From positions 1,116,001 through 1,180,000 of the forward strand of contig JAHBBC010000004.1 of assembly GCA_019915015.1 (NCBI GenBank): DNA of 64,000 nucleotides, given 5' to 3'. This stretch comes from Auriscalpium vulgare. Taxonomy: Eukaryota > Basidiomycota > Agaricomycetes > Russulales > Auriscalpiaceae. The notes below the pieces were generated by a model, which did not search any database, had not been told where the DNA came from, and saw only the letters and a list, made by a program, of their open reading frames with translations. Numbering within the stretch: position 1 is the first letter of the stretch; each line of letters starts with the position of its first letter. The translations under genes were made by a program, and so were the position numbers. Below are positions 34,967-52,700 of this stretch, piece after piece.

Positions 34967-35521
34967 TCACAGGAGCATATTGACGGACCAAACGAGCTGC
35001 CGTCCTACGCGCCGCGCCGTACGCCCGAATGCTCCGTTCCCCCCGAATGCTCCGTTCGCCCCAAACGCTCCGTTCGCCCCAAACGCTCCGTTCGCCCCAA
35101 ACGCTCCGTTCGCCCCAAACGCTCCGTTCGCCCCAAACGCTCCGTTCGCCCCAAATGCTCCGTGCTGACCGTATGCGTCGTGCTCGCGATAGTAGCCGAC
35201 GTGCGCGCCGGGGTGGCGAGGGTCGCCGTGTCGCTGGTGGTGGCCGCGCTCGCGGCCGTGGCCCGCCGCCGTCTGGACGCCGTCCGCGCCGTGGTGGCCG
35301 ACCCTGGGGACATGAACGGAGTGGTGGTGCCCGTTCGCGCCGCGCTCGAGAGGGTCGCCGCGTTGCTGGTGGTGGCCGTGCTCGCGCTCGCGGCCGTGGC
35401 CCGCCGCCGTCTGGACGCTGTCCGCGCCGTGGTGGCCGACCCTGGGGACATGAACGGAGTGGTGCCCGTTCGCGCCGCGCTCGAGAGGGTCGCCGTGTCG
35501 CTGGTGGTGGCTGCGCTCGCG
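34967..35521 (-). pseudogene. 3' half of a His/Gly-rich repeat-protein gene split by KDZ2
   Basis: The correct minus frame reads RERSHHQRHGDPLERGANG, HHSVHVPRVGHHGADGV and QTAAGHGRER in repeats of about 43-45 residues. It then runs through DAYGQHGAFG into repeats of the hexapeptide GAFGAN, encoded by an 18-bp tandem repeat at 35045-35165, and stops at 34967-34969. Upstream the frame is cut at 35521 by the KDZ2 end. Its 5' half is at 48366-49023. Confidence 0.7.
35045..35165. repeat. 18-bp minisatellite (hexapeptide repeat)
   Basis: GCTCCGTTCGCCCCAAAC repeated about six times with end variants. On the minus strand it encodes AFGANG repeats. Confidence 0.9.
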
Positions 35522-35592
35522 GAGCCGTGGGGCCTACTTTATTCACTAACCCCCTACAGTGGTAGGGATGGGTATATTCTCAGTGTAGATAG
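35522..35592 (+). repeat. KDZ2 left terminal inverted repeat
   Basis: Core GTAGGGATGGGTAT at 35562-35575. Positions 35553-35592 match the reverse complement of 48294-48333 at 32 of 40 sites. The outer 31 bp match 48334-48365 more weakly with small gaps (for example CTACTT, ACTAA). Confidence 0.82.
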
Positions 35593-36114
35593 TGTAGTTA
35601 AACAATGCACTATAGTTATGCAGTGGTTTACTATAGTAAACCTTGTACTAGCAGAAGTCTCTGGGCTTAGAGACTGTGGTCTACTATAGTAATGCTTGTA
35701 ATGCTTGTTCTCGGGTACAGCATCGGGACTGTACCTTTCCTACTATAGTGCATAACCCGCAGTCCCATATGTACTGTAGTTTTGGGACCGTACCTTTACC
35801 ACTATAGTGCGTGACGCGCTGTTCTGTGTGTACTGTAGTAATGTAGACTTGTCACTATAGTACTCCGTTGAACACTATAGTGCTACGTCGACAATTGTAT
35901 CAGCCCGCAATTTTTTTAATCATTTTTTAATCATTTATTTATTCAGGCATAAAATACGGGTAGGGTACAAAAAAGCCGCGCCAAACAGGTTTCGCAGCTC
36001 ACACAACCAGACAAAACACAGCACGAGAGATTCAAGAACATAGATAGGGTATAGGAACGCAGCAGGAGCATTTGGGGGCGGATTGGGAAGCTAAACCAGA
36101 AATATAACTAATAT
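35593..36114. repeat. KDZ2 left subterminal motif cluster (ACTATAGT)
   Basis: Between 35600 and 35890 the palindromic ACTATAGT and near variants (ACTGTAGT) occur about nine times, e.g. in CACTATAGTT, TACTATAGTAA and CACTATAGTGC. The rest (to 36114) is AT-rich without a gene. The same motif recurs at the other end of the element (47.38-48.3 kb). Confidence 0.75.
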
Positions 36115-39074
36115 TTACGACAAATAAATCGCACCGTTGGAGAAATCAACCCGCATGGTCAGATCTTGGCCCTGTCGACTACGTGTCAGTGTCCCGTAGG
36201 GACATAAAAGGAGAGCACGACGTACCGCTTGGAGCTGGCCTCCTCGCCGCCCTCCGGCGCGCTGCGTTTTTCTCCTCGGCGCAGGCCGGCCGTCAACTGC
36301 GCTAGAACCCAGTCTACGTCTTCCAATGCTGAAATTACCTCGTTCTTCTCGCTGTCGGTCTTCGCTGCCGTCGTCCACCAGACAATCGTGAGCAGGATGA
36401 GGACAAATCCATTTTTACCGCCCTTTCGCAGCTCGTTCCAGGGCTCGTCCTGGCGGTCCTCCCGCACCATCGGCCATGGCTGCGCGGCTGCGCGTCGCCA
36501 CTCGGGCTGCATGGCGGCCCACCAGGATCGCCACCGCTTCCCGAAGACTGACACCTTTGAGACTGGTTGCACCTTGTCGAGTTTGCGCCCGTTCTTCATC
36601 CACACACGAACCTCTTCGGGACGGATCCGTTTGTCGACGTTAAGCCAGTGTGCTTTGTCCTGTACGCAGTTGTGATCAGACGTGGGGAAAAATAGATAAC
36701 AGACAATACTCACGCGAGCGTCGACGTTGCCCAAAGAGCTCTCCAGCACCAGCCAGGAGTCCACGCTTCTGACCCACTCGGGCTCGTCGATGGCTCCCTC
36801 CAGGTGGCAGAGGAACTCCGGCTTCCAGTCGTCTTCATCGGCAGCATCGAGGGCACCGGGACTTGCTTCCGCAGGCTGGATAGCACCTGCGGCAGCCGCA
36901 GGTGCAGGCATCGCAGCTGCGCCTGTGCTCTCGACGGTGGCCACAGACAGCGTGGCGGGGGCGGGCGGCGGTGCGGGGGTGTCGGTAGTGCCGGACACCG
37001 CGGGCGCAGGTTTCGGTGCAGGGATGTCGGTGGCGATGGAGACCGCAGGCGCAGGCGTCGATGCAGGCATGTCGGTAGCTATGGTGACCGCATCGGTGGC
37101 GATAGAGACTGCGGGCGCGGGCGTCGTTGCGGGGATGTCGGTGGCGATGGACGCTGCGGGCGGAATGTCGGCGGCAGGCGCAGGCGTCGATGCAGGCATG
37201 TCGGTAGCTATGGTGACCGCATCGGAGGCGACAGAGACTGCGGGCGCGGGCGTCGTTGCGGGGATGTTGGTGGCGATGGACGCTGCGGGCGGAATGTCGG
37301 TGGCAATGGACACCGCGGGTGCAGGCGTCGGTGCAGGGTTGTCGTTGGCGACGGCGCTCCCATTTCCGGCATAGTCGTCCTCCTCGCATACCGTCTCCTT
37401 GTTGGCAGCATCCTCCTCTTCATCGGCTTCCTGGTCGTCGTCCATCTCCATTGCGATGGCGCCCGCAAACTCCTCGTCCTCCACAGACGGCAGACTAACG
37501 ACACAGCATCAGCACAAGACCGTATCAATAGCGTAGACAAACTCACGATTTTTTCTGTCCCCTCAGAGATACACGGCGCTCTCCGGAAACCTGGGGACGC
37601 TCGACTCGCGTCCTGGTCTTCGCGGGCTTTGCAATTTCAGCGACGAGGCGGCTGCCGCCGTGGAGCAAGTCCAGGGCCGCCAACCGCGCCTTGTTCTCGC
37701 GGATGCGGTCTTCACGCTGCTGTTCGTAGAGTGTGCCCTTACGCGGGGTCGGGGGCCGATTCTCCTTCTCGACTGGCTCGACGGATGACTCGGCACGCTT
37801 GGACGCCGACTGCGACTTGTTGCTCAACGGGGCGCTGCCCATTGTGACCGTCCCGTTGGCAGTGTTGGATGAGGCGAGCGGTGCGGTAGATGAGATAGCG
37901 GGAGGGGATGAAGATGTTGCACCCAAATTTGAAGGTGCGCTGGCAGCTAGACTGATGGAACCGCCCTGCGTAGATGCGCTGGTGCCCGGCAGAGCACGAG
38001 CATCGCAAACGTCTTGAGCTGTAGCAGGGCATTTAGCACACATCCGGCTCCATGGGTCGAGACCACGCACGAAAAATATGATTGAGATGGGCAACGAAAG
38101 GCTTCTCCACGGTCTCCTTGAAGTCGGCGTAGTCAGTTTTGAAGGTTTTGTCCTTGAACGGGGATGCGTGAAGGCTATATAGGTCCTACGTTGAGTACAA
38201 CCGCGCACTGTTGGTATGCGTGGGAAGGACTTACGCAAATGACCGCAAGTTGCCGCCCTCCACCGGAACCGGCCCGCCGAAGAGAATTGTCGTCGACCAG
38301 CCTGTCTGGCGCACTATCTCTCTCAACGCCGCTACCGCCGTCCGCGGGAGGGCATCGATCGCCCTGTTGTTGTGCTCGGTGAGTCTCCTGGATACAGGTA
38401 CAGTGAGTGGACTTACTCTTGCTGCTCTTGCAGCTTCGCGCCCGCGGGATCGTCTGCTTCAATCTCCTGGCCGACGCCGTTGTCGAAGGCAACGGCCACC
38501 TCATTACGCACCTCCTCCGACTCCCCGGCGAGCAACTCCCGGCAGCGTCGGTTACGAAACGCCAACGCACCACTGCCAGTCTCGCCTGGCGTCGTCTCAA
38601 GGTGTCTCTGCCACTCCGGCTCGACAACCGCCTGAAGCTTCTTTACCCAGTATAGGGTCTGATACGTCTGATACGGCGCCAGACGGCGACGCGTACTCCT
38701 TCCGGAAAGGTCGAGCACCTTTTTGCCTCCAGAGCCATCCGCAGAGGTACGACTTTTGTTGTTATACCATTGCTTAAGACGCTATTGATTGGTCAGTGCG
38801 ACGACAGATACGGGATCACGATGCCACGTACAATGCGGATAGGAGGCCCCTCATCACCTGACGCCTTCATGTTCCACCCCGGCGCGTCGGTCTCCGGCCA
38901 TAGCGCGATCCATTCGCCGAAGAGAGTGGGCCAAAAGTCGACGGTGGTCTGTTCGGACTGATGCTCGCGAAACTGCGGGAAGCGTTCCCAGAGGAAGGTG
39001 AGCTGCTCGAGGGACGTCCACATTTTTTTATTGACAGACGGGCGGGAGCCTTTGTTTTTTTTTGCACGAGGCAT
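36115..39074 (-). CDS. WFNN-motif protein (KDZ2 cassette), homeodomain-like HTH suspected
   Basis: Multi-exon gene from ATG 39074 to TAA 36115. Exon 1 is basic then Trp-rich (MPRAKKNKGSRPSVNKKMW, FGEWIALWPETDAPGW). Across the intron comes RLKQWYNNKSRTSADGSG, the equivalent of RIRQWFNNNSR in the gene at 5078. The block LYWVKKLQAVVEPEWQRHL and LAFRNRRCRELLAGESEEVR matches that gene closely. Then Ser/Ala linkers, RKGTLYEQQREDRIRENKAR, an acidic stretch, and long repeats of (P/T)APAVSIATDIP type (36990-37330). The C-terminal domain RWRSWWAAMQPEWRRAA with GKNGFVLILLTIVWW (about 36540-36380) also matches. Final exon RRQGQDLTMRVDFSNG is joined after SSK. Divergent from the gene at 39437. Function unknown; nucleic-acid binding is inferred. 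Confidence 0.68.
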
Positions 39075-39436
39075 GACGGACGACGCAAAGCGGCTGGGGG
39101 AAGAACAGGTGGGGTGGGGCGTTGTTCACTACGCCCTATACATTTTATCTGGCGGTCGTTCGATGCCCTGCTGACCACAGCGATCTGCGCCACGAAGACA
39201 ATATCACCGCGGTAGGCAGGTCACGCTGGCGCCACTCTGGCATGCGGCGGGCGACCGCATGGACGCTGGCTTCTTGTACTGGAGGGCTTCGACGCGTTGA
39301 CATATAAAAGCATTCGCGCAGCTTATGGGAGGCGCTGGCGCACTCTTTTTCTCCCCCGTCCGCCCGCGTCCGCTCACTTATCTTCGCCACAGTCTTCTTG
39401 CTCACTGCTTGCCCTCAAACATTTTCACCGTTCAAT

Positions 39437-41034
39437 ATGACTTGTACGTCCCTCCCTTGCGTTGCAATGCCGCTGGAACATGCTCACCCGCTTCCATGAT
39501 AGGCGCCGCTTCCAACCCGCCCCCTCCCGACCCTCCCCGTCTCCCAGGCTCTCCCGACGTCGCGCGGTCCGGCAGGAGTCGCCGCTATTCGTTCTACGCG
39601 GTGACCATTGGCTCCCTGGTTGGTGTCTTCCAGGATTGGTAAGTCGCCTCCGCTATAACTCACAGGCACGAGCTGATTCGCAACAGGTTGGTCGCCGCGC
39701 CTCTTGTTACGGGATGGCCAAACGCACAGTTCCGCGGTTTCCATCTGTTTGAGGAGGCAGCGCAGTCGTACATTACTGCTGTGGCCGCCCAGTCAAACCC
39801 CCGCCCCGAGCACCCGCTCAGCCTGGTGGCGCGCGTGGAGGACCCGGGTGCCGGTGGCGCTCAGGCCGCGGTACCTCCGACCGACGATCCGTCTCCACCC
39901 CCTTCCCACGACGTACCTCATGGTGCACCCTCAGCCACGATTGTTTTGGGAACCAGCACGTCCGCCCCCTCTGCGCCCGCCCCCACGCTCGCCACGCCCG
40001 CCCCCATCCTCCCCACGCCCGTCCCCGCGCTCCCCACATCCACTGCGCAGGCGGCTGGTGCCCAGTCTGGCTCCCGCTCGCTTCTCCTTCGTCGCGTCGA
40101 CGACCTCGACGAGCTGACCGGAGTCTTGCACTCTCTGAATGTCGACGACATGTTGAACTACCTTTCCGGACGCCGGGTCCCCGGCAGCAGCGTCCCTTCG
40201 GATGAGGCGCCCATTGTGATGTCGGTGTCCATCGCGAGGAACCCTCACCCTGGTCCTGGCGAGGACGCGTTCCGTGTGCTCGTGCGCACGAACCTCTCGG
40301 TAAGCGATTGTACCACCGCCTCCCGCAGTTTGCTCATTTCTTTGCAGGAACAGGCCGAAGTATACCCCTGCCCCGACAACGACGAGGACAACAACGACGA
40401 GGACAACAACGACGACGACAACAACGACGACGACGATGGCCCGGCGTATTCAACGGCTCCTCCCTCACCTGTGCAGCCACAGCACGCGCCCATTGACCGC
40501 GACGACACCCCGGAGCCGAGCTCGCCCAACCTCAGCGTCATATCCGTCGTCTCCACGCCCCCTTCTTCTCCGTCGCTGACTTCCGCCCCGGCATCGAGCA
40601 TGGGCGCTGTTCAGTCCCCAGAAGATGCCCGTGTTGTCGCCGTCCTCGAGGCACCCGTCCTTCGCCGGCCCCGCTGCCCTTGTGCCAACTGCCGCCGCAG
40701 GCAGGAGATGCAGCCGGCAGACCATGCTAGTCACTTGCAGGGGTTGCCCTCTGCTTCTGCGCAGCTGCGCACAGTCGGTACCGACACCGCCCTTGTCGAC
40801 GTGCCGGACGATGGAGACGAGTGGTACGTTGTCGCGCGTGGCCGTGTTCGCGGCGTTTTCCGAGGCCCTCTGTAAGTGCCGCTTCTTTTTCCCATGTCAG
40901 TCATCTTCTGATGCTTTTTGACATGCAGGCAGAACGTGCGCTCGCTCATTGTGGGCTTTAACGGTGCTTTCTTCCAGGGCTTCCAGACGAGGGCTCACGC
41001 GCTTGCGTGGTTCGTTGAGCAGGACGTGGCCTGA
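39437..41034 (+). CDS. Protein with two RNase H1 N-terminal/Cauli_VI-like domains (KDZ2 cassette)
   Basis: ATG 39437 opens a tiny exon (ATGACTT), spliced to CAASNPPPPDPPRLPG. First domain: RRYSFYAVTIGSLVGVFQDW, intron, LVAAPLVTGWPNAQFRGFHL then FEEAAQSYITAV. Second domain at the C-terminus: EWYVVARGRVRGVFRGPL, intron, QNVRSLIVGFNGAFFQGFQT then ALAWFVEQDVA, stop 41034. Both show the Y-x-V-x-x-G-x-x-x-G-V-F ... V-x-G-(F/W)-x-x-A-x-F-x-G-F pattern of the RNase H1 hybrid-binding/Cauli_VI fold, each with an intron at the same point, as in the gene at 3996-4820. The linker is Pro/Ala-rich and carries an Asn/Asp run (40378-40440). A TATAAAA box lies at 39303-39309. No nuclease domain. A role on RNA-DNA hybrids or dsRNA is inferred from the fold. 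Confidence 0.68.
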
Positions 41035-41961
41035 TCGCCCGCCGCACTCTCCCGCCGCACTCTCCCAAGCGTCCCGCTTCCTTGTTATGTTGCTCTCGCC
41101 CGCATCGGACGTTATCTATTGGCCTCGTCGTCTGTGTCCCCCATTGCTCTGTGATATGTTGTCGCTGCTTTCTTGTCATCCGATGTTCTTCATTCACCAC
41201 CATCATTCCCCGCGCGGCTCTTGCGCGGCTCGTCATCTTCTGCGGCCACGTTACCGCTCTCTGCTTATTGTCTGATATAGCGGCTACGTTACCGCTGCGC
41301 TATGATTGTGCGCCCGTCTTATCTATGCGGCTACGTTACCGCTGCCTATGTTTCGTATTGCGTGCCCGTTTATCTATTTGCCTTCTTTGATATGTTGTGG
41401 CCCTTTCTGATACATGCCGCCGTGTCCTCGCGGGTTCGGACATTATTTTGCACGATATCACCATTGCGCAGTGTTTGGGTTGTAGTTCTGGGTCGCCGTG
41501 TTGTCTGGGGTGCTTTCATGATGTCGCGTTCGTCTGTGACTGTCCGCTGTACATATTCTGTAGTGCTTGTGTTAGTGTGTAGACACAAATAAGACATAGC
41601 CCGCGCGGGCGTGTTAGGCTTTCGTACACCGGTGGAACTAAGAAAAATGAATATGAGGACACTGGAGCGAAGCCTTGACAACATTTCTCGAGGCTCAGGC
41701 TGCACATATGCAGTATACTGGCGCGCTCGCTGTATTGGCGTCAAAAACCTTTGGTTTGGGTCATGGACTTCCGTAGCACTTGTGTAATATTGCATAGATT
41801 TTATAGCTCGTTATATGACATTGCCCCCACAGTTCTGTCATGTTGAGGCTGCGAGGCGACGAGGAGGAGGTGGGAACGAGCATGGACCACGCCTGACAAG
41901 GTGAATGGGCTTGAGGCTAAACTGGGAATTCACCGGTGCGCTCGCTCAGCCTCGTCCCGTC
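41035..41961. other. Spacer inside KDZ2 with an 18-bp dispersed repeat
   Basis: GCGGC(T/C)ACGTTACCGCT occurs at about 41241, 41280 and 41328. Pyrimidine-rich, no gene recognised. Confidence 0.5.
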
Positions 41962-42784
41962 ATGGCGTCACACAATCCTTCCACTTCCTCTGCTTCCACT
42001 CCATCCGCAAACAGTTCAGATCCAACATACTATCAACGGTCAGTTACCAAGCGCATTTGGAGGTTCATCACGCTCACAAGGTCCGGCGTACAGACACAAG
42101 TCCCGACTGCAGACTTATCAGCGCAAATACGCTGCTGAAAAGCGTGCGTGCGGTCGACGTAAGGTATCGAAGGAGCTTCGCAAGGCAAAGAAGGGCTGGA
42201 AGAGGGGAGAGCCAGAGAACACCGGAGATGGTGACGGTGAAGTGGGTCTCGCGAGGTACGTCGCTCTGTTATGTTGGATACCGCTCTACTGACAGTGAAT
42301 CACCCCACAGTTACACGGACACCCTTGCATATCGCAGCCACGAACGCGACCCGGAGCGCACGATCCTCATGCAACTCGATGAGGTTGACCTTGCCGGTCA
42401 ATGTGCCCGCCTTGAAGTTGAAGAAGACGACTGGCTCGACGACGGGGACGGCTGGAGGTCCAAGTACCTCGATGCCCTCCGGAAGCTGCTAGACGAACAC
42501 CTTGAGCGGGCAAGGGAGCGTCAGGCCTCGCCATACGATGTTCCGCTTGCACAATACCGTGCCTTGCATAACCTCCGTCGACTGATCGCCGGACTGCACC
42601 AAATGATCGAACTTGTCACCCAAGGCCCAACGAACGGACTGTCTTATGAAGAATTGCGGTCACCCTCTTTGATATTGAATGGATGTCGGTGAGTAACAAG
42701 AATTACTGCACGAGGCTGAGTTGTGCTGAGATTGCTCATCCCAGCGTGAAGAAGACAGTGTTCAAGAAGCTTTACGGGTTCTGA
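41962..42784 (+). CDS. Small basic companion protein of KDZ element (copy 2)
   Basis: ATG 41962 (MASHNPSTSSASTPSA), four exons, stop 42782-42784. After the first intron the frame gives RHKSRLQTYQRKYAAEKR and GRRKVSKELRKAKKGWKRGE; after the second, an acidic helical region (LDEVDLAGQCARLEVEEDDW), LRRLIAGLHQMIELVTQG (about 42565-42620), and after the third VKKTVFKKLYGF. Each block has its match in 2664-3410 with the introns in the same places. Lies 363 bp upstream of the transposase on the same strand. No named domain recognised. Confidence 0.7.
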
Positions 42785-43146
42785 CTGTTGCGTCTGGCGA
42801 TGTCCCTCGCATTGTCAACTACTTGAACGGTTCTCTCACTTGTGTGTACATTTTATTTGCTGTGCGCGCACGTTGTGTTCGCTGCCGCCGTGCGCGTTTT
42901 GTGCGCAGCGTCTGGTTTGGCACGTCTGATTGGCTGCACGGTTGTGCAGCTTGTTAAGCTTCTGTTGTTGGTAGTACATTACTGTTAATCAGATGGCTAA
43001 TAGCCTTGCTGAGTGCGTGCTATACTGTACAAGAATTGAGCATTGGGAACAGCTGAAAGGCAGCAGAGGCCCGGACTGGTCACGTGTCCGCCGCCATGTG
43101 TACTGCTATGTCGTGGGATCCGTAACTTACCCGCGTACCCGCTGCC

Positions 43147-46100
43147 ATGGTGCGCAAGCGCAAAGGCATCAGTACAAGCGATGTTGACGTCGTTCCCATG
43201 GACGTCGGCCCCGCCCCTGCCAGCTCAGCTCAGCGTCGACGGATGCGCCACACCAATGTCACCATTCGGGACAAGAACACTGGCCATTCAACCGCCCACC
43301 ATGTGCCAACCACCGAGCCCTCATCCAGCACAAATGCTGCCACAAACACGGCCCCGGACGCGTCTGAGGCCCTTCAAGAGCCCGAATATCATCATGAAGA
43401 TGTCTACATTGAGGACATCGATGTGCCGCAAGCCCGCAAACGTCAGCGGCGGGAACGTCGCAAGAAAAAGAATCGCGTACGTGTTATTCCGCATTGCTAG
43501 TAAAGTAGACGATTTCTCACTACATTTCATCATGATGCAGGTTGCACTCCTCCAAGAGTGGTCTCCCTTACGGGACATCTTTATGGACGAGTTGGTCCGC
43601 CTCGAAGGAAGAGGCGATTATCTCGATGTCGTGGACTGCTGCGAATGCAGCGAACGACCCTTCAAAACTCGCTGCATCGACTGCGTCGGATCGCCCCTCC
43701 TGTGCGAGGAGTGCCTTTGCGCGGCTCATTCCACGAGTCCTCTTCATCGAGTTCAGGTGAGTTACCGTCGTTTCCATGGTCACCAGCTATTCATTTATTT
43801 GCACAGTCGTGGAACGGCAATCACTTCGAGAAATACTCGCTCATGGAGGCCGGAGTCTGCCTGCAACTCGGCCATGATGACTCCGCATGCCCAAATCCCC
43901 GCAACACCACGTCGACCCTGACCGTCATTGATGTCAGCGGTGTTCACACCGTCCGTGTTCGCTTCTGCGACTGCGGTAATATCGAGAGCGCCCGGTCCTA
44001 CATTCAAATCTTGCGTGCCCGCTGGTGGCCAGCAACGGTGAAGCGGCCCCGTACTGTGGTCACTCTGAGGACGTGCGAGCTGTTTCATGCGCTCACTCTT
44101 CAAGGGAAGATGAATGCGTATGACTTTTGGCACGGGATCGCGCGCATCACGGACAATACGGGGCTGAACGCGCCGAAGGTGCGTCTGTCGGACATCATCC
44201 GATCTCATTGTGCTCATCCGTTGCTGTAGGATCATTACAAGGACTTTATACGAATAATGCGGTGCTTCCGCAATCTCCGCATGGCCAAACGTGGTGGCCG
44301 CGCTCATGACCCAACGGGCATCCAAGGCACCGCAATCGGTGAATTGGTCGTAGAGTGTCCTGCCTGCCCACAGCCTGGCCGCAACATGCCAGCGGAGTGG
44401 GAGCTATTGCCGGAAAACGAGCGGTACGTGTCACTTCAATTGATTGATTCAACATCTCAACTCACGCAATATTAGGTGGAAGCACGCGCTGATGCTATCA
44501 ATTGACGCGAACTTCAAACTCAAGTTGAAGAACCGAGGACTGGCCGATGTGGCGCTTGCCCCGGGATGGGCTTATTTCGTGGAGAACGAGCCGTACAAGG
44601 AGCATATCGAGAAGTACGTTGACCAGGAAGAAGTAAGTACTCAGTCGTCTCCCATGCACGTAGCGCGTTGACTGATATCCCTTAGATGAAGCATTGCGAC
44701 TCATCATTTGCGGCCGTGGATCACGCGAACGTCCCGGCCCACAAACGATTCGCCGTCAATGGTGTCGGCGCCGTAATATGCGCAAGGCACTGTTTTTACC
44801 GAAAAAGCGGGCTGGGAGATCTGCAGCGGGGGGAGCGGTACGTCCGCTTCCATACTCACATCACTCACGGGCAACTGGGCTGATGGATCTATTCCACAGA
44901 TATTGTAATATGGACTACATCTTGCTGTCGACCATCGCACGAACAGCGGGCAACATCAAGATCATCGTCTTGACGTACGACATTGCGTGTCAGTTTTCGA
45001 AGAATTTCGCCCGCCGGTTGGCGGAATACCCGGAGGGCTTACGCGTCGACATAGACGGTGTGACATTCATCTTCCTGGTGCCCAAGTTCCATCTCCTCGC
45101 ACACGGCCCGCAATGCCAAGCCGACTACAACCTGAACTACACCAACAAAGTTGGACGGACGTGCGGCGAGGGCATAGAGGCCGGTTGGGCAGAGACAAAC
45201 GGCTCGGCGTTGAGCACACGGGAGATGTCGCCGGAGTCGCGTCACGAAGGCCTGGACGATTTCTTCGGCGCGATCAATTGGCGCAAGACAATCACGCTAG
45301 GTAAGTGCCTGTGCCTGCGTCCGAACTTCACCATGTGACTGATCGTGTGCCGCAGGCAAGCTGCTTGTGCGCTCACTCAACGAAGCTGTTCCGGCGCTTG
45401 CAGCACAGAAGAAGGCGCTAGAGGACAGCAACGCGACTATCCCCCTCGCCATACGCGAGCGATGGGAAGCCATGATCTTGGCCTGGGATGCAGACAGCTC
45501 ATGCCCGAATCCGTACGACGAACCGCCGACAGGTATGTTTGCGCGTTGACTTTGGTAAACAAGTTGCTGATCTCTAGACTACTATAGTGACAACTCTCAC
45601 GGATGTTCGTCTGGAGCTGGCTGCACAGGAGAATGCCGACGTTCAGCGCGGCGTGATGTCCCTGCACGAGATGTCGGCTAGTATATTCCTGAGTGTCGGG
45701 ATTGAGCTCGAGGACCTGCAGTAAGTCCTTCCGTAGATTGAGAGTTGGCAATTCTGACGATGGATTCCAGGCGTACTATCAAAGTCCAAGCGAAAGACAG
45801 CGAGAGCAAGACTCCAGCGGGCCGACTTGCCTTGCAGGAAAAGCGCAACGCCCTGCAGCATCGTATACGATCGTGGCAGAACATTCAGAAGGTGTACATG
45901 CCGGCCGTTGCCGCTCTGCTGGCTTCGGCGGCGGCGTTGGCGGCATCTCCGGAGTCTGTCCTAGCTCCGGACGGTTCAGCAGTGGGGCTTTCGAACGCGC
46001 CTGCCGGGACCATCTCCACAGCCACCGCGAGCACCACGTCCGAGTCCATCGCAGCCGCCACGACCACCGCGACTGTCGTGTCCAATGCAACCATCACGTC

Positions 46101-47200
46101 CACCGCGACTATCCCACCCATCGCCCCCGCAACGCGTCGTCGTCGACGGCGCGCGGCCGCCGCACTATCAACATCAACTGGGCCGAATATCGAGGACGAG
46201 CCGCTGTATCTCCCATCCTCTATACCAGACGACATGTGGCAGGAAGGCCTCTCGACGGGTCTCATCACAAAATATCAACGACTCCGGGTTGCTCATGCCG
46301 AGGAGGCCCTTCATCATCTGCGTCGTCAACTCCGCATGCGCACGGGCCTCATTCGGTATAAACACGTCTTTGTTGATGGGCCGGGGCAGAACGCCAATAC
46401 GCGCGCGCGTAATCAAGTCAGCCGGCTGCAAGATAGGATCAAGAGGCATGCGTCGCAGTATCGCGCATCATATGACGCGCTCCTCGTGGTCTGGCCGGAG
46501 GGACCATGGCGACAACGCCTCCTGGAGCTCAAAGATGAACATCTGCGGCCCCCTCGGGACGAGGAGGAGCTCGCCCGCAATATCCGTACACGTGGAGAGC
46601 TGCTAGGAGAAGGCCATCGAGAGCAGATGTGGATCTGGAAAGCCATGCCGCATGACGCCCGTGATATCCCCGGGCAGCCGGAGAATATCAGCGAGGACGA
46701 GGTACATGAAGGTTAGCATGCTCGTGTATCTCCCAATGTCAATGGCTCACCGGGCATGCGTAGGCCTGCGTGTTGATTGGGCAAAGGCACGCGCACGAGT
46801 CCTGCGTTGGGACGAGGAAATCCAGCACCTTCAAGCAGAAATGCCACGCGCTGTGGCATTCCTACGTCACAAGGCCGATTGGTGGATCAGTCGCGCAGAC
46901 CTCCGCGCAGACGTGACTGCCGACATCCGCGACGGGCTCTATGCATACGCGGCTCGGCATTCCGCCATGTACAACAAACTAGCAGACGAGTTCCAGGCGC
47001 TTTGGACACGCGCGCTCGCCGCTCACGACTTATCCGCCGACTGGTCAGTGGCCAATCGTTCTAATCCCACGCCGGTGGTCGTTGCTAGCGAGGCGAACGT
47101 TGGGACCGTTGCTGAGGTCGAAGGGTTGCAGAGTGACACCGAGTCCGAGGCGTCAGATAATTTTTCGGTGGCCGCATCGTCAGATGACGAGTCCGAGTAG
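43147..47200 (+). CDS. KDZ transposase 2, apparently intact
   Basis: ATG 43147 to TAG 47200 in about ten exons. Basic N-terminus (RKRQRRERRKKKNR); CxC2-like cluster CCECSERPFKTRCIDC with CEECLCAAH (43640-43735); QGKMNAYDFWHGIARITDN (about 44105-44160); CPACPQPGRNMPAEWE (44360-44400). Catalytic candidates: Asp in SIDANFKLKLKNR (44504-44506), Asp in TYDIACQFSKN (44979-44981), HGPQCQ, and Glu in EAGWAETNGSALSTREM (45192-45194). The C-terminal half is helical and basic with an Ala/Thr-rich linker (46000-46180), ending in an acidic Ser/Asp/Glu tail. Every exon boundary I checked keeps the frame, so this is the best candidate active copy. It belongs to the same subgroup as the copy at 1-2517 and is more distant from 49761-53228. 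Confidence 0.85.
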
Positions 47201-47519
47201 TCGCGTGCACTTATGACTCGACAGTGTACATTAGTTCTGCTTGCATGATATAAAAGCCGTTGTCTGAGAGTGAACTGATGTCTCATACCCGAGGCAAATC
47301 CAAAGCTACGACTTAAGAACAGTAACAGTGAGCACTCATGACTTAGGAGATGATTAGCTGTCCGGAGTTCATACTACAGTGCATAGTAGGTGCCCGGAGC
47401 TCATGACTTAGAAGTTTTCAGCTGCCCGGAGTTCGTACTATAGTGCATTGGTGCACTATAGTGATACATGGGGCCTTTTCCTGGTGTGGGTAGTATGCGG
47501 AGGTATAGTGGCGGAAAAT

Positions 47520-48190
47520 GCAAAAATCTGCTGTCAGTGCCGAAAAATGCAGAATCCACGGGTTGGGGTAGTAAAGTACCGCAGTATTCAGAGGTAAAGT
47601 ACCAAAAAATACGAAATCCGTGGTTTGGGGTAGGTCAGTACTACAGTATTCAGAGGTACAGTACCGAAAAATACGAAATCCGTGGTTTGGGGTAGGTCAG
47701 TACTACAGTATTCAGAGGTACAGTACCGAAAAATACGAAATCCGTGGTTTGGGGTAGGTCAGTACTACAGTATTCAGAGGTACAGTACCGAAAAATACGA
47801 AATCCATGGTTTGGGGTAGGTCAGTACTACAGTACTCAGAGGTACAGTACCGGAAAATGTGAAATCCGTGGTTTGGGGTAGGTCAGTACTACAGTATTCA
47901 GAGGTACAGTACCGAAAAATACGAAATCCGTGGTTTGGGGTAGGTCAGTACTACAGTATTCAGAGGTACAGTACCGAAAAATACGAAATCCGTGGTTTGG
48001 GGTAGGTCAGTACTACAGTATTCAGAGGTACAGTACCGAAAAATACGAAATCCGTGGTTTGGGGTAGGTCAGTACTACAGTATTCAGAGGTACAGTACCG
48101 AAAAATACGAAATCCGTGGTTTGGGGTAGGTCAGTACTACAGTATTCAGAGGTACAGGACCGGAAAATGTGAAATCAGTGGTTTTGGGCA
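47520..48190. repeat. 62-bp tandem array at the right end of KDZ2
   Basis: About eleven copies; clear unit starts are at 47641, 47703, 47765, 47827, 47889, 47951, 48013, 48075 and 48137, exactly 62 bp apart, preceded by diverged copies. Each unit has AGTACTACAGTATTCAGAGG, GTACAGTACCGAAAAATACG and TCCGTGGTTTGGGGTAGG. The CTACAGTA motif echoes the ACTATAGT cluster at the other end. Just upstream (47380-47470) are TGCACTATAGTGA-type palindromes. Confidence 0.92.
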
Positions 48191-48293
48191 GGATGAGACC
48201 ATGTTGTACTATAGTATTGACTAGCTAAACACTACAGTTGATGTTGTATCACTACAGTAACACAGGATCCCTATGTATCGCACATGTACTATA

Positions 48294-48365
48294 CCTACTA
48301 CAATGAAAACATACCCATCCCTACTATTGTAGGACTTAGTATAACTAAGTAGCTCCCTACAGTTG
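48294..48365 (-). repeat. KDZ2 right terminal inverted repeat
   Basis: Reverse complement carries the same GTAGGGATGGGTAT core. Between core and end lies a small palindrome, ACTTAGT-ATA-ACTAAGT (48334-48350). Confidence 0.82.
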
Positions 48366-49023
48366 GCTCGCGCTCGCGGCCGTGGCCCACCGCCGTCTGG
48401 ACGCCGTCCGCGCCCTGGTGGCCGATCCTGGGGACCTGAACTGAGTGGTGCCCATTCGCGCCGCGCTCGAGAGGGTCGCCGTGTCGCTGGTGGTGGCTGC
48501 GCTCGCGCTCGCGGCCGTGGCCCACCGCCGTCTGGACGCCGTCCGCGCCCTGGTGGCCGATCCTGGGGACCTGAACTGAGTGGTGCCCATTCGCGCCGCG
48601 CTCGAGAGGGTCGCCGTGTCTCTGGTGGTGGCCGCGCTCGCGGCCGTGGCCCGCCGCGGTCTGGACGCCGTTCGCACCGTGGTGGCCAATACGCTCGCGG
48701 GGGTCGTCGAGTCGCACGTTGCCGATCCTCCCTGCCGCCGTCTCGAGGCCGTGCGTGCTCTGGTTGCTGCGGGTGCCGTGGCCGCCATGTTGCGCCTGGC
48801 CGCCAACCGTACCCGCCACCGTCTCGAGGCCCTCCTCCACAATCCTCCTCCCTCCGGTGAGCATTATCTCCCCCACCTCGCGCGTCCTGCCGTGGTCGAC
48901 ATGATGTTCTTGTCGAGGTGCGTTGTAAGGCGGGGGCGGGTCCCCGCGGGCTGGTCCTCCGTAGTCAGAAACGATATAATTGTAATTCACCGTATTGTCT
49001 CGATGATGGTGATTGGTCCACAT
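48366..49023 (-). pseudogene. 5' half of the His/Gly-rich repeat-protein gene split by KDZ2
   Basis: ATG 49023 (MWTNHHHRDNTVNYNYIVSD), then VSDYGG and a His/Gly/Arg-rich body with units such as GHHGADGVQT, GHGRERERSHHQRHGDP and LERGANGHHSVQVPRI, about 45 residues each. At 48366 the host sequence ends and KDZ2 begins; the frame then reads into the TIR. Continues at 35521-34967. Unrecognised family; low-complexity, possibly secreted or structural. Confidence 0.68.
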
Positions 49024-49290
49024 AATCTAACATTATGTTGTGAGTACCGTCTAGATTAAGAGTGGAGGGAACTGACTGACGCGTATGTGGTGGTGAAAGG
49101 AGTTGGCCGTGCACGGAGTTCGGCTGCGCGCGTACTTACTCTGGTGGCGTCGCGCTTCAGCTCTCACGGTGTGTCCTTCTTGCCCTCCTCACCCTCCTGC
49201 CCCGTCGACGAGGCGACACTCTCCTGCAGGACCCAGGTACGTCCTTATAATCAAGCATCTGGCGCGTTCTGACTCAGTACTTGCAGACAA
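49024..49290. other. Host spacer between KDZ2's target gene and KDZ3
   Basis: 267 bp with a short open plus frame (49087-49272) but no recognisable gene. Confidence 0.4.
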
Positions 49291-49760: not shown

Positions 49761-52700
49761 CTACGCTTGAATGTCAGATACTTCATTGTCAGAGTATGAA
49801 TTAGAAACCGACCGTGCAGCATATGCGGCGGCGCCACGTTGACTTAATGAACTGCCCTGTGCTTCTGCACGACTCAGCCAAACCTGTTGCTCATCGTACC
49901 AATGCCGCTGCGTCCTCCGTATCGATTCTTCCAGGCGCTTGACATGTTCCTGCCAGCGAGCTTGCTTCGCACTCGATCGGAACCAGGTGAGACGGTCAAC
50001 TATCATGATGTCAGCTGGGTACCAAGCACGTATAATCAAAGGGACTCACGCTCTTCATCCCATTTTGCTGTAGCGTCATCCGAGTCAGAAGCCCAATACT
50101 CACCATCGCGCCAGAGCCACGAGCGCTCACGGTCCTTCGATGATGTGTCGTGGTCTTCAACAGCATGAACGAGGGCCACGACGCGACAGTCATGTTCCGT
50201 TAGCGGCCGATAGTTCTTGTCATCCTCCTGGAGCCCTAGCGTGAGCATGTTCGACCGCATCGTAGTGTATAGATGGCGAAGTCGGGCGGTTGCCTGGTAA
50301 GCGCGAGTGACCGTCTTCTGGTGGCGTGTCTTCGCCTCTTGGCCATACGACGCCTTCTCTGACCTCCACAGGAAGGACTTCAATGAAATCTTGAGGCGTA
50401 GCTCCCGCAGAAGATCACAAGCCCGACCTTTTCGCAGAAGGAGCTCTGCCTCCGCTAGAGACTTGAATAAGGAATTCTGCCTGACATCCATGGGGTATGT
50501 CGATGGCAAGCGAAGTTGGACGTCCTCGGCTAGGACATCTTGGTCAGAACGCGGTGCCGGCCAGCTCGTTTCTGGACTTTCAAGCCTGAGGACTGTCGGG
50601 GCCACGATAGCAGCGTGAAGGTCCTCGAAGCGTGCAATCTGAGTGTCAAGGCGCGATCGGCTGTCTTCGATAGCGGTTTTTTCGGCACCTGACAGCTCCT
50701 TTTGCTTTGCCTTGCTTTGTACATCGTACCTATTCAAACATGTTAGGGGAATACCTGAAGTGTGTTGCAAGAAAGACGTACTGTCGCGCCTCCAAGTCGA
50801 GACCAAGCTTCAGAAATGCAGTGAGGCTTGGCCGACCATGTTCCTCGCTTGCTGTGCCCCGCTCAGCGTCAAACTCCTTCTCCAAAATCAGCAACGCTTC
50901 CTTCTCGGTCGGTGCTAAGACAAGATATATTAGTTCAAGTGAGCGCAAAATTTAAAAACGACTTCACACCTTTGTCACTCGCCGGTTCATACGGGCTGAC
51001 TTTTGGCTGGTCCTTTCGTGCCGTTCCGTCGGCAAGTGTGGTCAAGAACTCGGTTTCGGCAGTCCGCCACTCGTCCAGTGGACGTCCGCGGAAATTGAAG
51101 GTCGCTTCGCAACGTTCATGTTGCTCTTCAGCTTCCGCCGCGGCAGACTTTGCTTGGTCCAGCTTTTTTGCAAGAAACTTGGCTGATTGTAGTCAGCGCG
51201 CAACAAACAGAAGATACGCAGGAGCTATACTCACCTATCGTGAAGATTTTCTGCATGTTGAAATCTCCGTTGTGAACATTATGCGTGTCGTGGCGGTACC
51301 CTGGCCCCATCTCTTTTGTCTGAAGTGCGAGTGAATTCTGCACGGCCCACCGACGCTCAGGCGCCTCGCCCTCCGTCATGCCACACCCAGGAGTGACATC
51401 CGGCGAGTTGAGAAACTTGCAGTCATCCTTGTGCCCATTCAAGTGCCATTTTGGAACGACACGGATGGTAAGGGGGAAGTCTGGACGACCGGACGGAAAT
51501 TTGTCCATGCGCGTGTCGAAGTTAATTCCGTATTGACAATTGATATCGTATGAAGAGATGTGCAACTTGAGATCTTTGTATGGGCGTGTCGCAGACACCG
51601 TCGCAAGGTCCACATGGGCAAATCTAGCTCAACAGGTGAGGCTCACAAACAGGTGATTGGACGACAACAACGCACCTTTCGCCTTTCGTCAAGTCAACGG
51701 TTGAGGACCCCATGATCATCCCGTGCGGTGCGCATACTAAAGACACCACTCCCGTGATGCGCTTGCCGTCGAGTCGCTTGCCATTGAGAGCAAAGAACTT
51801 GTTGCACGTCGACGTCTACGATATGTGAGATACTTCGTCAATTGTAGACGGTTGCATACGTACCTCTTTGCTGCTATCCGGGTCGTTGTCCATGATCTTG
51901 AGGTGATTCGCACACTCAACATCATCAACATAATAACCACCGCCCCTCGTGAACGCGACGTCATCAAGATCCATCTTCTTCATGTGTTGATGGAGCTGAA
52001 AGTTCCCGTCTTTTGCATAAAACAGTGCATGGATGTATCTGCACGCGGCGTCAGCAGACAGCGAACTCTGATATATTTGAGTGTACTCAACTGGTCTTTT
52101 GCTGGTACGTCTTTCCAACCGGGGTCCATGTTCTTCCCAGGTTGAGGACAGGCAGGACATAGGACGACGAGACTTCCGGCGGCGTATCGATCCTGTACAC
52201 TCGCTCCAAACTGCTTGAGCGTCTGGATGAACATGAATTGCCGTTGGCTTGTGAGAAGCTGCCTATATCGATCCTGCGAGGATCAGCATGGGCGACAGTC
52301 ATGATGAGCGCAAGATAAACTCACCGGTACGTCGTCACGAAAAGCGTTGTTTGTCATGCGCAGCTTGACACGGTTGTAGTCCATCACATTCACCTTGGCC
52401 TGGAGGGAGAACTGATTGTACTCCCGTGCTGAGTGGAAAGTTGTCGCCGTTCGGGGGTTCTTATATGACGCGGGCCAGAGCCCTGCGTTTGCCAGCTGCA
52501 GTGGGACATCGACAGGATTATACTTGTCGGGTGGAAAGCAGCCGCAGAACTGGACATTGCAAGTGTGAATGCCGTTGACATGGGTCACTGTCATCGAAAC
52601 AGGTTCCTTGGCGAAGGGACAGTTGTCGCCCCCATGTCCAAGGCGGATGACGAGGCCTAGCTCTTGAAGTCCTCTGCGCTTGAAGTACGTGCCGACCCAT

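Follow-up and report, generated by a model that had tools for sequence, protein, structure and literature searches.

A KDZ transposon that probably carries four genes as one unit

The window that we analysed, a 64,000-nucleotide stretch of the Auriscalpium vulgare genome, very probably contains a complete 12,844-bp DNA transposon of the KDZ type at 35522-48365 on the + strand (1151522-1164365 on contig C4). The element is predicted to be autonomous and is likely to move by cut-and-paste through its own transposase, duplicating 7 bp of target and carrying three companion genes along as one unit; we put the probability of this reading at about 90%. Its extent is given by tips common to other copies and by the empty-site junction, and the hallmarks of the KDZ superfamily found in it are a PF18758 domain, a CxC cluster and D/D/E-type motifs.

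The heptamer GCTCGCG, which the earlier note had placed against both outer edges, is indeed found there as an unstranded target-site duplication, the left copy (35515-35521) matching exactly the right copy (48366-48372), which lies directly outside the right tip. The imperfect terminal inverted repeats (TIRs) occupy 35522-35598 and 48288-48365 (both annotated on the + strand), with tips reading GAGCCGTGGGG on the left and ...ACAGTTG on the right; their strong parts (35553-35598 and 48288-48333, 46 nt) are 80% identical. The repeats had been described as matching at 32 of 40 positions and weakening outwards, and we reproduced both features: the best ungapped 40-mer between the ends scores 32/40, whereas 60 shuffles of both ends never exceeded 24/40, and the first 20 bases agree at 10 positions without gaps. 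The left subterminal region (35610-35900, + strand) carries the repeated motif ACTATAGT, seven of which fall within the first kilobase of the element, and the right end holds a subterminal tandem array (47535-48192, + strand; 62 bp x 10.6). The two ends of the window copy contain ACTATAGT 10 times, where 200 shuffles averaged 0.03; the motif occurs eight times in the ends of the copy C44 and is absent from the ends of the copies C4b and C2.

The element interrupts a target repeat tract on the - strand, the downstream part of which lies at 34970-35514 (stop-to-stop frame 34970-35533) and the upstream part, with a 66% relative on C25 and no Pfam domain above cut-off, at 48373-49026. Removing the element and one GCTCGCG yields a junction identical at 60/60 positions to 48478-48537, another unit of the target repeat. 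The earlier claim of a restorable target thus holds at the level of sequence identity, whereas the rejoined reading frame is by itself weak evidence, because the target, a tandem repeat, has all three frames of its strand open.

Other copies confirm the element boundaries

When the left 600 bp of the window copy served as a DNA query, the genome yielded just one other match, of 67 bp, and copies were therefore sought by tip pattern and protein. Among 15 tip-pattern matches, three (L017, L020 and L022) were excluded as not tip-like, leaving 12 sites including the window copy. The left tip reads GAGCCGT at 11 of these (window copy included) and GGGCCGT at one; AGCCGT belonged to the search pattern and the leading G did not. 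All eight copies with both ends located have GA...TG termini, and seven, the window copy and six others, are flanked by a perfect 7-bp duplication, each of the others by its own different 7-mer. The eighth, C44, has both tips and no duplication (left GCGTGCT, right TACAGGG), and its right flank gave no match to the paralogous target. A paralogous empty site was identified for another copy, C19:473829. No right end was found for C17 within the sequence stretch examined, nor for C2:2105053 when traced.

C44 and C47, which lie at different sites with different flanks, are 99.3-99.4% identical in the stretches compared, and their homology starts exactly at the left tip and stops exactly at the right tip. 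As the tips recur elsewhere and two near-identical copies cease matching exactly there, the boundaries of the element are independently confirmed. The window copy is without a near-identical copy in the genome, and the evidence for its own recent movement is thus its perfect duplication.

Four predicted genes in a constant order

The claim that four genes lie inside the element is borne out by spliced models predicted from sequence, which place genes A, B, C and D in one order in all four copies modelled (the window copy and three further copies). Gene D (43243-47136, + strand; approximately 13 exons and 1,037 aa) encodes the KDZ transposase with a CxC2 domain. Both of its ends are uncertain: one model spans 43243-47132, and the other extends to 47136, with an implausible start within gene C. 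The KDZ label given earlier is upheld by a PF18758 match of 4.2e-60 (203.6 bits against a cut-off of 26.6, covering 2-217 of 217), accompanied by PF18803 (CxC2) at 1.3e-36 (125.5 bits). Motifs of the SIDANF, TYDIACQ and CGEGIEAGW type, which we take to be the D, D and E of the catalytic triad, are present in 4/4 copies aligned.

Gene A (36186-39074, - strand) is predicted to have 6-7 exons and to encode 847-865 aa with the motif RLKQWYNN, and it is conserved in other copies. C4b and the A. vulgare relative P0002 have the 'WFNN' by which the gene was originally named; the window copy reads WYNN. Gene A has no Pfam domain and no PDB sequence or fold match. Its structure was predicted from an alignment of an A. 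vulgare relative with another and 16 exon pieces (mean pLDDT 51); searches with this model against PDB and viral structures gave no match at E 0.001, and that its N-terminus may be homeodomain-like is a guess.

Gene B (39496-41034, + strand) is predicted to have six exons and to encode 418 aa, its 5' end being uncertain; a 602-aa model was set aside, as its start falls in the region of gene A. The description 'Cauli_VI-like' agrees with two stretches of PF01693 (RNase H1 N-terminal type; 3.7e-18), a type of domain known for binding to RNA-DNA hybrids or double-stranded RNA. In the PDB search RNase H1 came up only weakly, in two matches at E 0.24 and 0.43 that ranked below an unrelated one. In C4b and C2 gene B gave no tblastn match, yet it was recovered with a lighter model. 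Gene C (41905-42692, + strand; three predicted exons, 225 aa) has no Pfam domain above cut-off, and the structure predicted from its A. vulgare relative alone (pLDDT 51) consists, at low confidence, of helices only. That relative stands at 64%; in A. vulgare the relatives of genes A and B bear consecutive locus tags (1612142 and 1612141) and are listed on contigs of equal length, and a single A. vulgare gene model, P0003, spans B and C.

Companion genes accompany one branch of KDZ transposases

To map linkage we entered 79 of 81 KDZ rows, the two dropped being second pieces of one gene, and merged 102 gene A rows into 46 places and 45 gene C rows into 40 by visual inspection. The counts cover A and C, and as the searches were seeded with the window copy's proteins, remote versions of either could be missed. 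A Cauli_VI family search of the genome (8 matches) was left out, the exon-by-exon approach being too insensitive to map gene B. Among the 46 KDZ places of at least 45% identity (window copy included), 29 have both A and C nearby, five A only, four C only and eight neither, so that A and/or C adjoin 38/46; two of the 38 (C19:229951 and C8:67424) may borrow a neighbour's companion, and at C19:229951 an inserted element separates the place from its own A and C. Near the KDZ places below 45% identity, neither A nor C was found (0/33).

Genes A, C and D occur in matching order and orientation at 9 of the 11 tips checked, a set from which L019 (GGGCCGT, with a gene A match nearby) was excluded; of the other two, C12 is a contig end still showing A, and at C2:2105053 the match ceases after 744 bp. 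Copies enclosing the transposase only, which the earlier note had named as evidence against joint mobilisation, are absent among the eight two-ended copies in this genome. Together with the homology of C44 and C47 ending at the tips, these observations support the proposal that all four genes move together as a single unit.

We estimated dN/dS by the Nei-Gojobori method on predicted models, the main figures coming from one pair. For C4b/C2, unfiltered, the ratios are 0.35 (A), 0.33 (B), 0.38 (C) and 0.15 (D), and by this sequence comparison all four predicted genes are under purifying selection in the pair. For the window copy and C44, the transposases of which are 62% identical, the ratios are 0.19 (A), 0.28 (B) and 0.08 (D) at near-saturated dS, with no ratio obtained for C, in columns with local identity >0.3, a filter that lowers the ratios of A, B and C.

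Alternative explanations

Could the repeats and GCTCGCG be chance matches within a GC-rich tandem repeat? The heptamer does occur twice, overlapping, at the right edge, and the openness of the target repeat in all frames of its strand fits such an origin, but the recurrence of both tips at other sites, each with a distinct 7-mer, refutes it and leaves it a practically negligible probability. Scarcely more credible is that the three companions are clustered genes native to the genome, around which KDZ copies gather, and that the tips enclose them by chance. While 11/46 A places and 8/40 C places have no KDZ match in range, this is contradicted by C44 and C47, the similarity of which reaches the tips on either side and which, by coordinates, hold A, C and D at equal distances from the tip, and by the 7-bp duplications that enclose the gene set in 7/8 copies.

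More serious, if still rather improbable, is the notion that the transposase alone matters for movement and that A, B and C are captured hitch-hikers that happen to persist. Gene capture by fungal transposons is on record, the available part of one report describing a Cauli_VI gene within a Pleurotus Helitron (PMC4289320), and A-C do diverge faster than D. Against this stand the constant order and orientation of the three genes in copies with transposases as different as those of the window copy and C44, the purifying selection on all four genes in the pair tested, the fact that A-B and B-C are also neighbours in A. vulgare gene models, and the finding of neither A nor C around the 33 more distant KDZ places. 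Given that three further copies hold the same four predicted genes side by side, the additional genes are likely to have a working role in the element, as opposed to being carried along by accident.

Comparison with known elements

Companions such as A-C are not described with KDZ transposases in the literature searched; an earlier account is possible in the founding KDZ paper, reportedly that of Iyer and colleagues in 2014. Zisupton itself makes an 8-bp target duplication. The same length is given in the accessible part of PMC12730594 for Zisupton-1_PGr, a representative of a Dileera lineage. The window element shares a KDZ transposase with Zisupton and Dileera, yet duplicates 7 bp and not 8 bp.

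In the portion available, the same paper (Kojima 2025, PMC12730594) describes Kyakuja, TET/JBP-bearing KDZ transposons of Agaricomycetes found in mushroom orders including Russulales, with a 7-bp target duplication, 5'-CA...TG-3' termini and, in two Laccaria families, a reported absence of TIRs. On that description, Kyakuja and the window element have in common the KDZ transposase, the 7-bp duplication and the right terminus TG, whereas the window element begins with GA instead of CA, has imperfect TIRs unlike the two Laccaria families, and carries three other genes instead of the TET/JBP gene. The Pfam results for its four genes contain no TET/JBP domain, and the sole PF12851 match on C4 (at 370291) is far from the element. 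Among 17 TET/JBP matches in the genome, the nearest to the 46 close KDZ places lies 11.4 kb downstream of C10:99317, and the spacing, by coordinates, pairs that gene with another KDZ.

KDZ1 of Cryptococcus neoformans resembles the window element in its KDZ transposase with a CxC domain and its size of approximately 11 kb, and differs in having 241-bp TIRs, an 8-bp duplication and CxC1; the available part of the report (PMC12810828) mentions no companions resembling A-C. Harbinger/Nuwa, according to the part of PMC12730594 at hand, are two-protein DNA transposons with a transposase and a Myb/SANT protein. They offer a working analogy for a companion protein beside a transposase, but their transposase is unrelated to that of the window element and gene A has no Myb/SANT match in Pfam.

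Discussion

In the preferred reading of a four-gene transposon, transposase D would recognise the subterminal repeats and tips and cut there. The regular company that the companions keep with one transposase branch, and the purifying selection on them, suggest that their proteins serve the element and not the host. Most likely B would shield the element from silencing or work at its transcripts, A would act with the transposase in the nucleus, possibly by binding DNA, and C would be a small helical adaptor. As a tentative and rather speculative extension, a separate KDZ branch may have swapped the TET/JBP anti-silencing gene for a conserved three-protein kit, in which B, with its two RNA-DNA-hybrid-binding domains, would guard or license the element and A and C would complete a multi-subunit transposition complex. 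If this were true, the element would be a eukaryotic cut-and-paste transposon that depends on four self-encoded proteins.

Published KDZ elements, as far as the available texts go, are characterised by their transposase, often plus a TET/JBP gene. Here, one KDZ branch retains three companion genes while its transposases differ at more than a third of aligned residues, and three gene families gain a context. A set of copies with exact ends is at hand from which a transposition assay could be built, and a single genome allows KDZ branches with and without TET genes to be compared, a contrast relevant to the evasion of silencing by fungal transposons.

Boundaries and insertion site of the element

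The KDZ-type transposon at 35522–48365 (12,844 bp) is borne out in both its existence and its exact coordinates by its terminal inverted repeats (TIRs), the flanking duplication and the ends of other copies. The TIR match of 32/40 that the earlier note had claimed is indeed the best ungapped 40-mer, with 60 shuffles of the two ends giving at most 24; the TIRs are imperfect, 10 of 20 bases matching without gaps at the very tips. Sequence inspection likewise places GCTCGCG, the claimed target duplication, immediately outside both element ends. The element interrupts a target tract of 18-bp and ~135-bp tandem repeats (35013–35163, 35200–35521 and 48364–48687). Once the element and one GCTCGCG are removed, the central 60 bases of the junction are identical to 48478–48537, a further unit of the target’s own tandem repeat, and at the level of sequence this match is good evidence for insertion. 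Of the restored target described by the earlier note, this junction identity stands, while the rejoined reading frame (402 codons in the frame chosen there) is weak evidence, because each of the three frames on that strand is open through the repeat, the tract as a whole being open in several. Used as a query, the non-repeat end of the tract found one genomic relative elsewhere (66%).

Gene content

Spliced models predicted from conserved frames and splice signals yield four genes, A–D. Gene D is a predicted KDZ transposase of ~1,037 aa, with a complete PF18758 domain and CxC2 by Pfam; its D, D and E motifs, which we take to be the catalytic residues, are present in 4/4 aligned copies. The remaining three are its companions. 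Gene B carries two Cauli_VI stretches of the RNase H1 N-terminal type in each of the copies covered by the Pfam scan (the window copy, C4b and C44; contigs and the copies on them are designated by C-numbers); B in copies C4b and C2 was missed by tblastn and recovered with a lighter model. Gene A (WYNN/WFNN) gave no Pfam domain, no PDB relative by sequence and no fold match, and the small gene C no Pfam domain above the cut-off.

Among the matches listed in protein searches, relatives came from Auriscalpium vulgare only: at least two for A, at least five for B (two Cauli_VI stretches in all four scanned) and one for C. An A relative (FA95DRAFT_1612142) and a B relative (FA95DRAFT_1612141) have neighbouring tags, each on a contig with a listed length of 22,991 bases, and P0003, a single gene model, spans B followed by C (45% and 42% by blastp, respectively); A–B and B–C adjacency therefore recurs outside the genome searched.

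Other copies in the genome

Across 51.6 Mb (96 contigs), a search for a 19-base left-tip pattern, allowing up to three mismatches, gave 15 places, 12 of them tip-like, the window copy included; 11 of the 12 tips read GAGCCGT, of which the leading G alone is independent of the search pattern, and one reads GGGCCGT. Both ends were located in eight copies, and seven have a perfect 7-bp duplication: the window copy (GCTCGCG), C4b (C4:732416–747063, 14,648 bp, CCCCTGC), the C2 copy (from C2:3101758 downward, 13,666 bp, CTTGCGG), C19:253609–230776 (22,834 bp, GTTACCA), C47:85467–72986 (GGGCGGG), C22:289810–277753 (GTTGCCG) and C19:473829–491687 (CGAACGG). The pooled G+C of these 7-mers is 76% versus 56% for the window, too few sequences for a claim of preference. 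The eighth copy, C44:44800–57173, has both tips without a duplication, and a post-insertion rearrangement is possible there; its right flank has no match to the paralogous target and by eye resembles a Cauli_VI stretch.

The paralogous empty site of C19:473829 adjoins C44 and holds a single 7-mer, one base different, with an ungapped alignment spanning the junction and one 15-base gap ~70 bases upstream. The two elements occupy paralogues of a single repeated target, with insertion points 58 bases apart. The right end of the C17 copy was not found within the stretch examined, the C12 copy sits at the end of a contig, and C2:2105053 is 99.7% identical to its sister over 744 bp, where the match ends. 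Within C19:228451–260000, the 22.8-kb C19 copy is inserted in the KDZ gene of another same-branch element and, judging by facing tip-like motifs, itself seems to hold a ~1.9-kb insert, i.e. the elements are nested.

Part of a second element opens the window, with matches of the same branch to KDZ (394–809, −), gene C (~2811, −) and gene A (~5325, +); by nearly equal scores, its close relatives are C4:48880–54141 and C26:361004–366265. A KDZ fragment of a distant branch (51227–51757, −, 32% identical) is one of 12 listed places with nearly equal score.

Companion genes travel with the transposase

The earlier note had inferred that the four genes move as one unit. The most direct evidence for companions travelling with the transposase is, on sequence grounds, the comparison of C44 with C47: their DNA is 99.3% identical over the left 1,520 bases, 99.4% over 3,438 bases around the transposase and 99.3% over 4,605 plus 609 bases on the right, and the similarity starts precisely at the left tip and ends precisely at the right tip, where the flanks differ. 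By coordinates, the distances of the A, C and D matches from the tip agree between the two copies, the DNA comparison covering the left, transposase and right stretches. The C12 tip matches C44 at 99.0% over 1,525 bases, five of which lie outside the tip.

We entered 79 KDZ places from 81 KDZ rows, 46 of which, the window transposase included, are at least 45% identical to it, and counted A upstream on the opposite strand and C upstream on the same strand. The 46 close places have A and C in 29 cases, A alone in five, C alone in four and neither in eight; two of the 38 with a companion may borrow a neighbour’s. Neither A nor C lies beside any of the 33 places below 45% (0/33), although remote versions could escape searches seeded from the window copy. 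In reverse, a KDZ match is in range of 35/46 A places and 32/40 C places.

TET/JBP genes gave 17 matches in the genome. By coordinates, six (C9:154498, C9:492869, C13:416026, C13:539088, C8:1578966 and C14:947177) are divergently oriented to KDZ places with 34–36% identity and lie ~4.3 kb upstream of them, the position that gene A takes relative to the transposase in the window element’s branch. Around the 46 close places, the shortest distance to a TET/JBP match is 11.4 kb, downstream of C10:99317.

Comparing C4b with C2 gives unfiltered dN/dS values of 0.35 (A), 0.33 (B), 0.38 (C) and 0.15 (D); on filtered columns, with dS near saturation, the window copy versus C44 gives 0.19, 0.28 and 0.08 for A, B and D (C not computable). 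The companions are therefore constrained, but less so than the transposase. At synonymous sites, the divergence of C4b from C2 is 0.67–0.75 for A–C and 0.38 for D, which suggests different histories for the two halves; these may be mosaic elements, perhaps through recombination between copies.

Relation to known elements and a proposed mechanism

In the portion of Kojima 2025 (PMC12730594) consulted, two Laccaria Kyakuja families have 7-bp duplications, CA...TG ends, no TIRs and TET/JBP genes, and a Dileera family has an 8-bp duplication. Like this Kyakuja description, the window element has a 7-bp duplication and a TG end; unlike it, the element starts with GA, has imperfect TIRs and is without a TET/JBP gene. 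We therefore file it as KDZ, near Kyakuja in its duplication, and make no assignment to that group. Cryptococcus KDZ1, which according to an excerpt of PMC12810828 has TIRs of 241 bp and a duplication of 8 bp, likewise differs from it. A Cauli_VI gene within a Pleurotus Helitron is on record in the part of PMC4289320 seen, so this domain has been carried by transposons before.

Alongside the observed ends, duplication, predicted genes, linkage and constraint, we propose a division of labour among A–D. D would cut and join with a 7-bp stagger, and subterminal repeats may be what it recognises; one of them, ACTATAGT, is found 10 times in the window copy ends (shuffle mean 0.03) and eight times in C44, with none in C4b or C2. 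Domains of the RNase H1 N-terminal type bind RNA–DNA hybrids or double-stranded RNA; through such domains, B could counter silencing or act on element transcripts, while A would be a nuclear partner of D and C a small adaptor.
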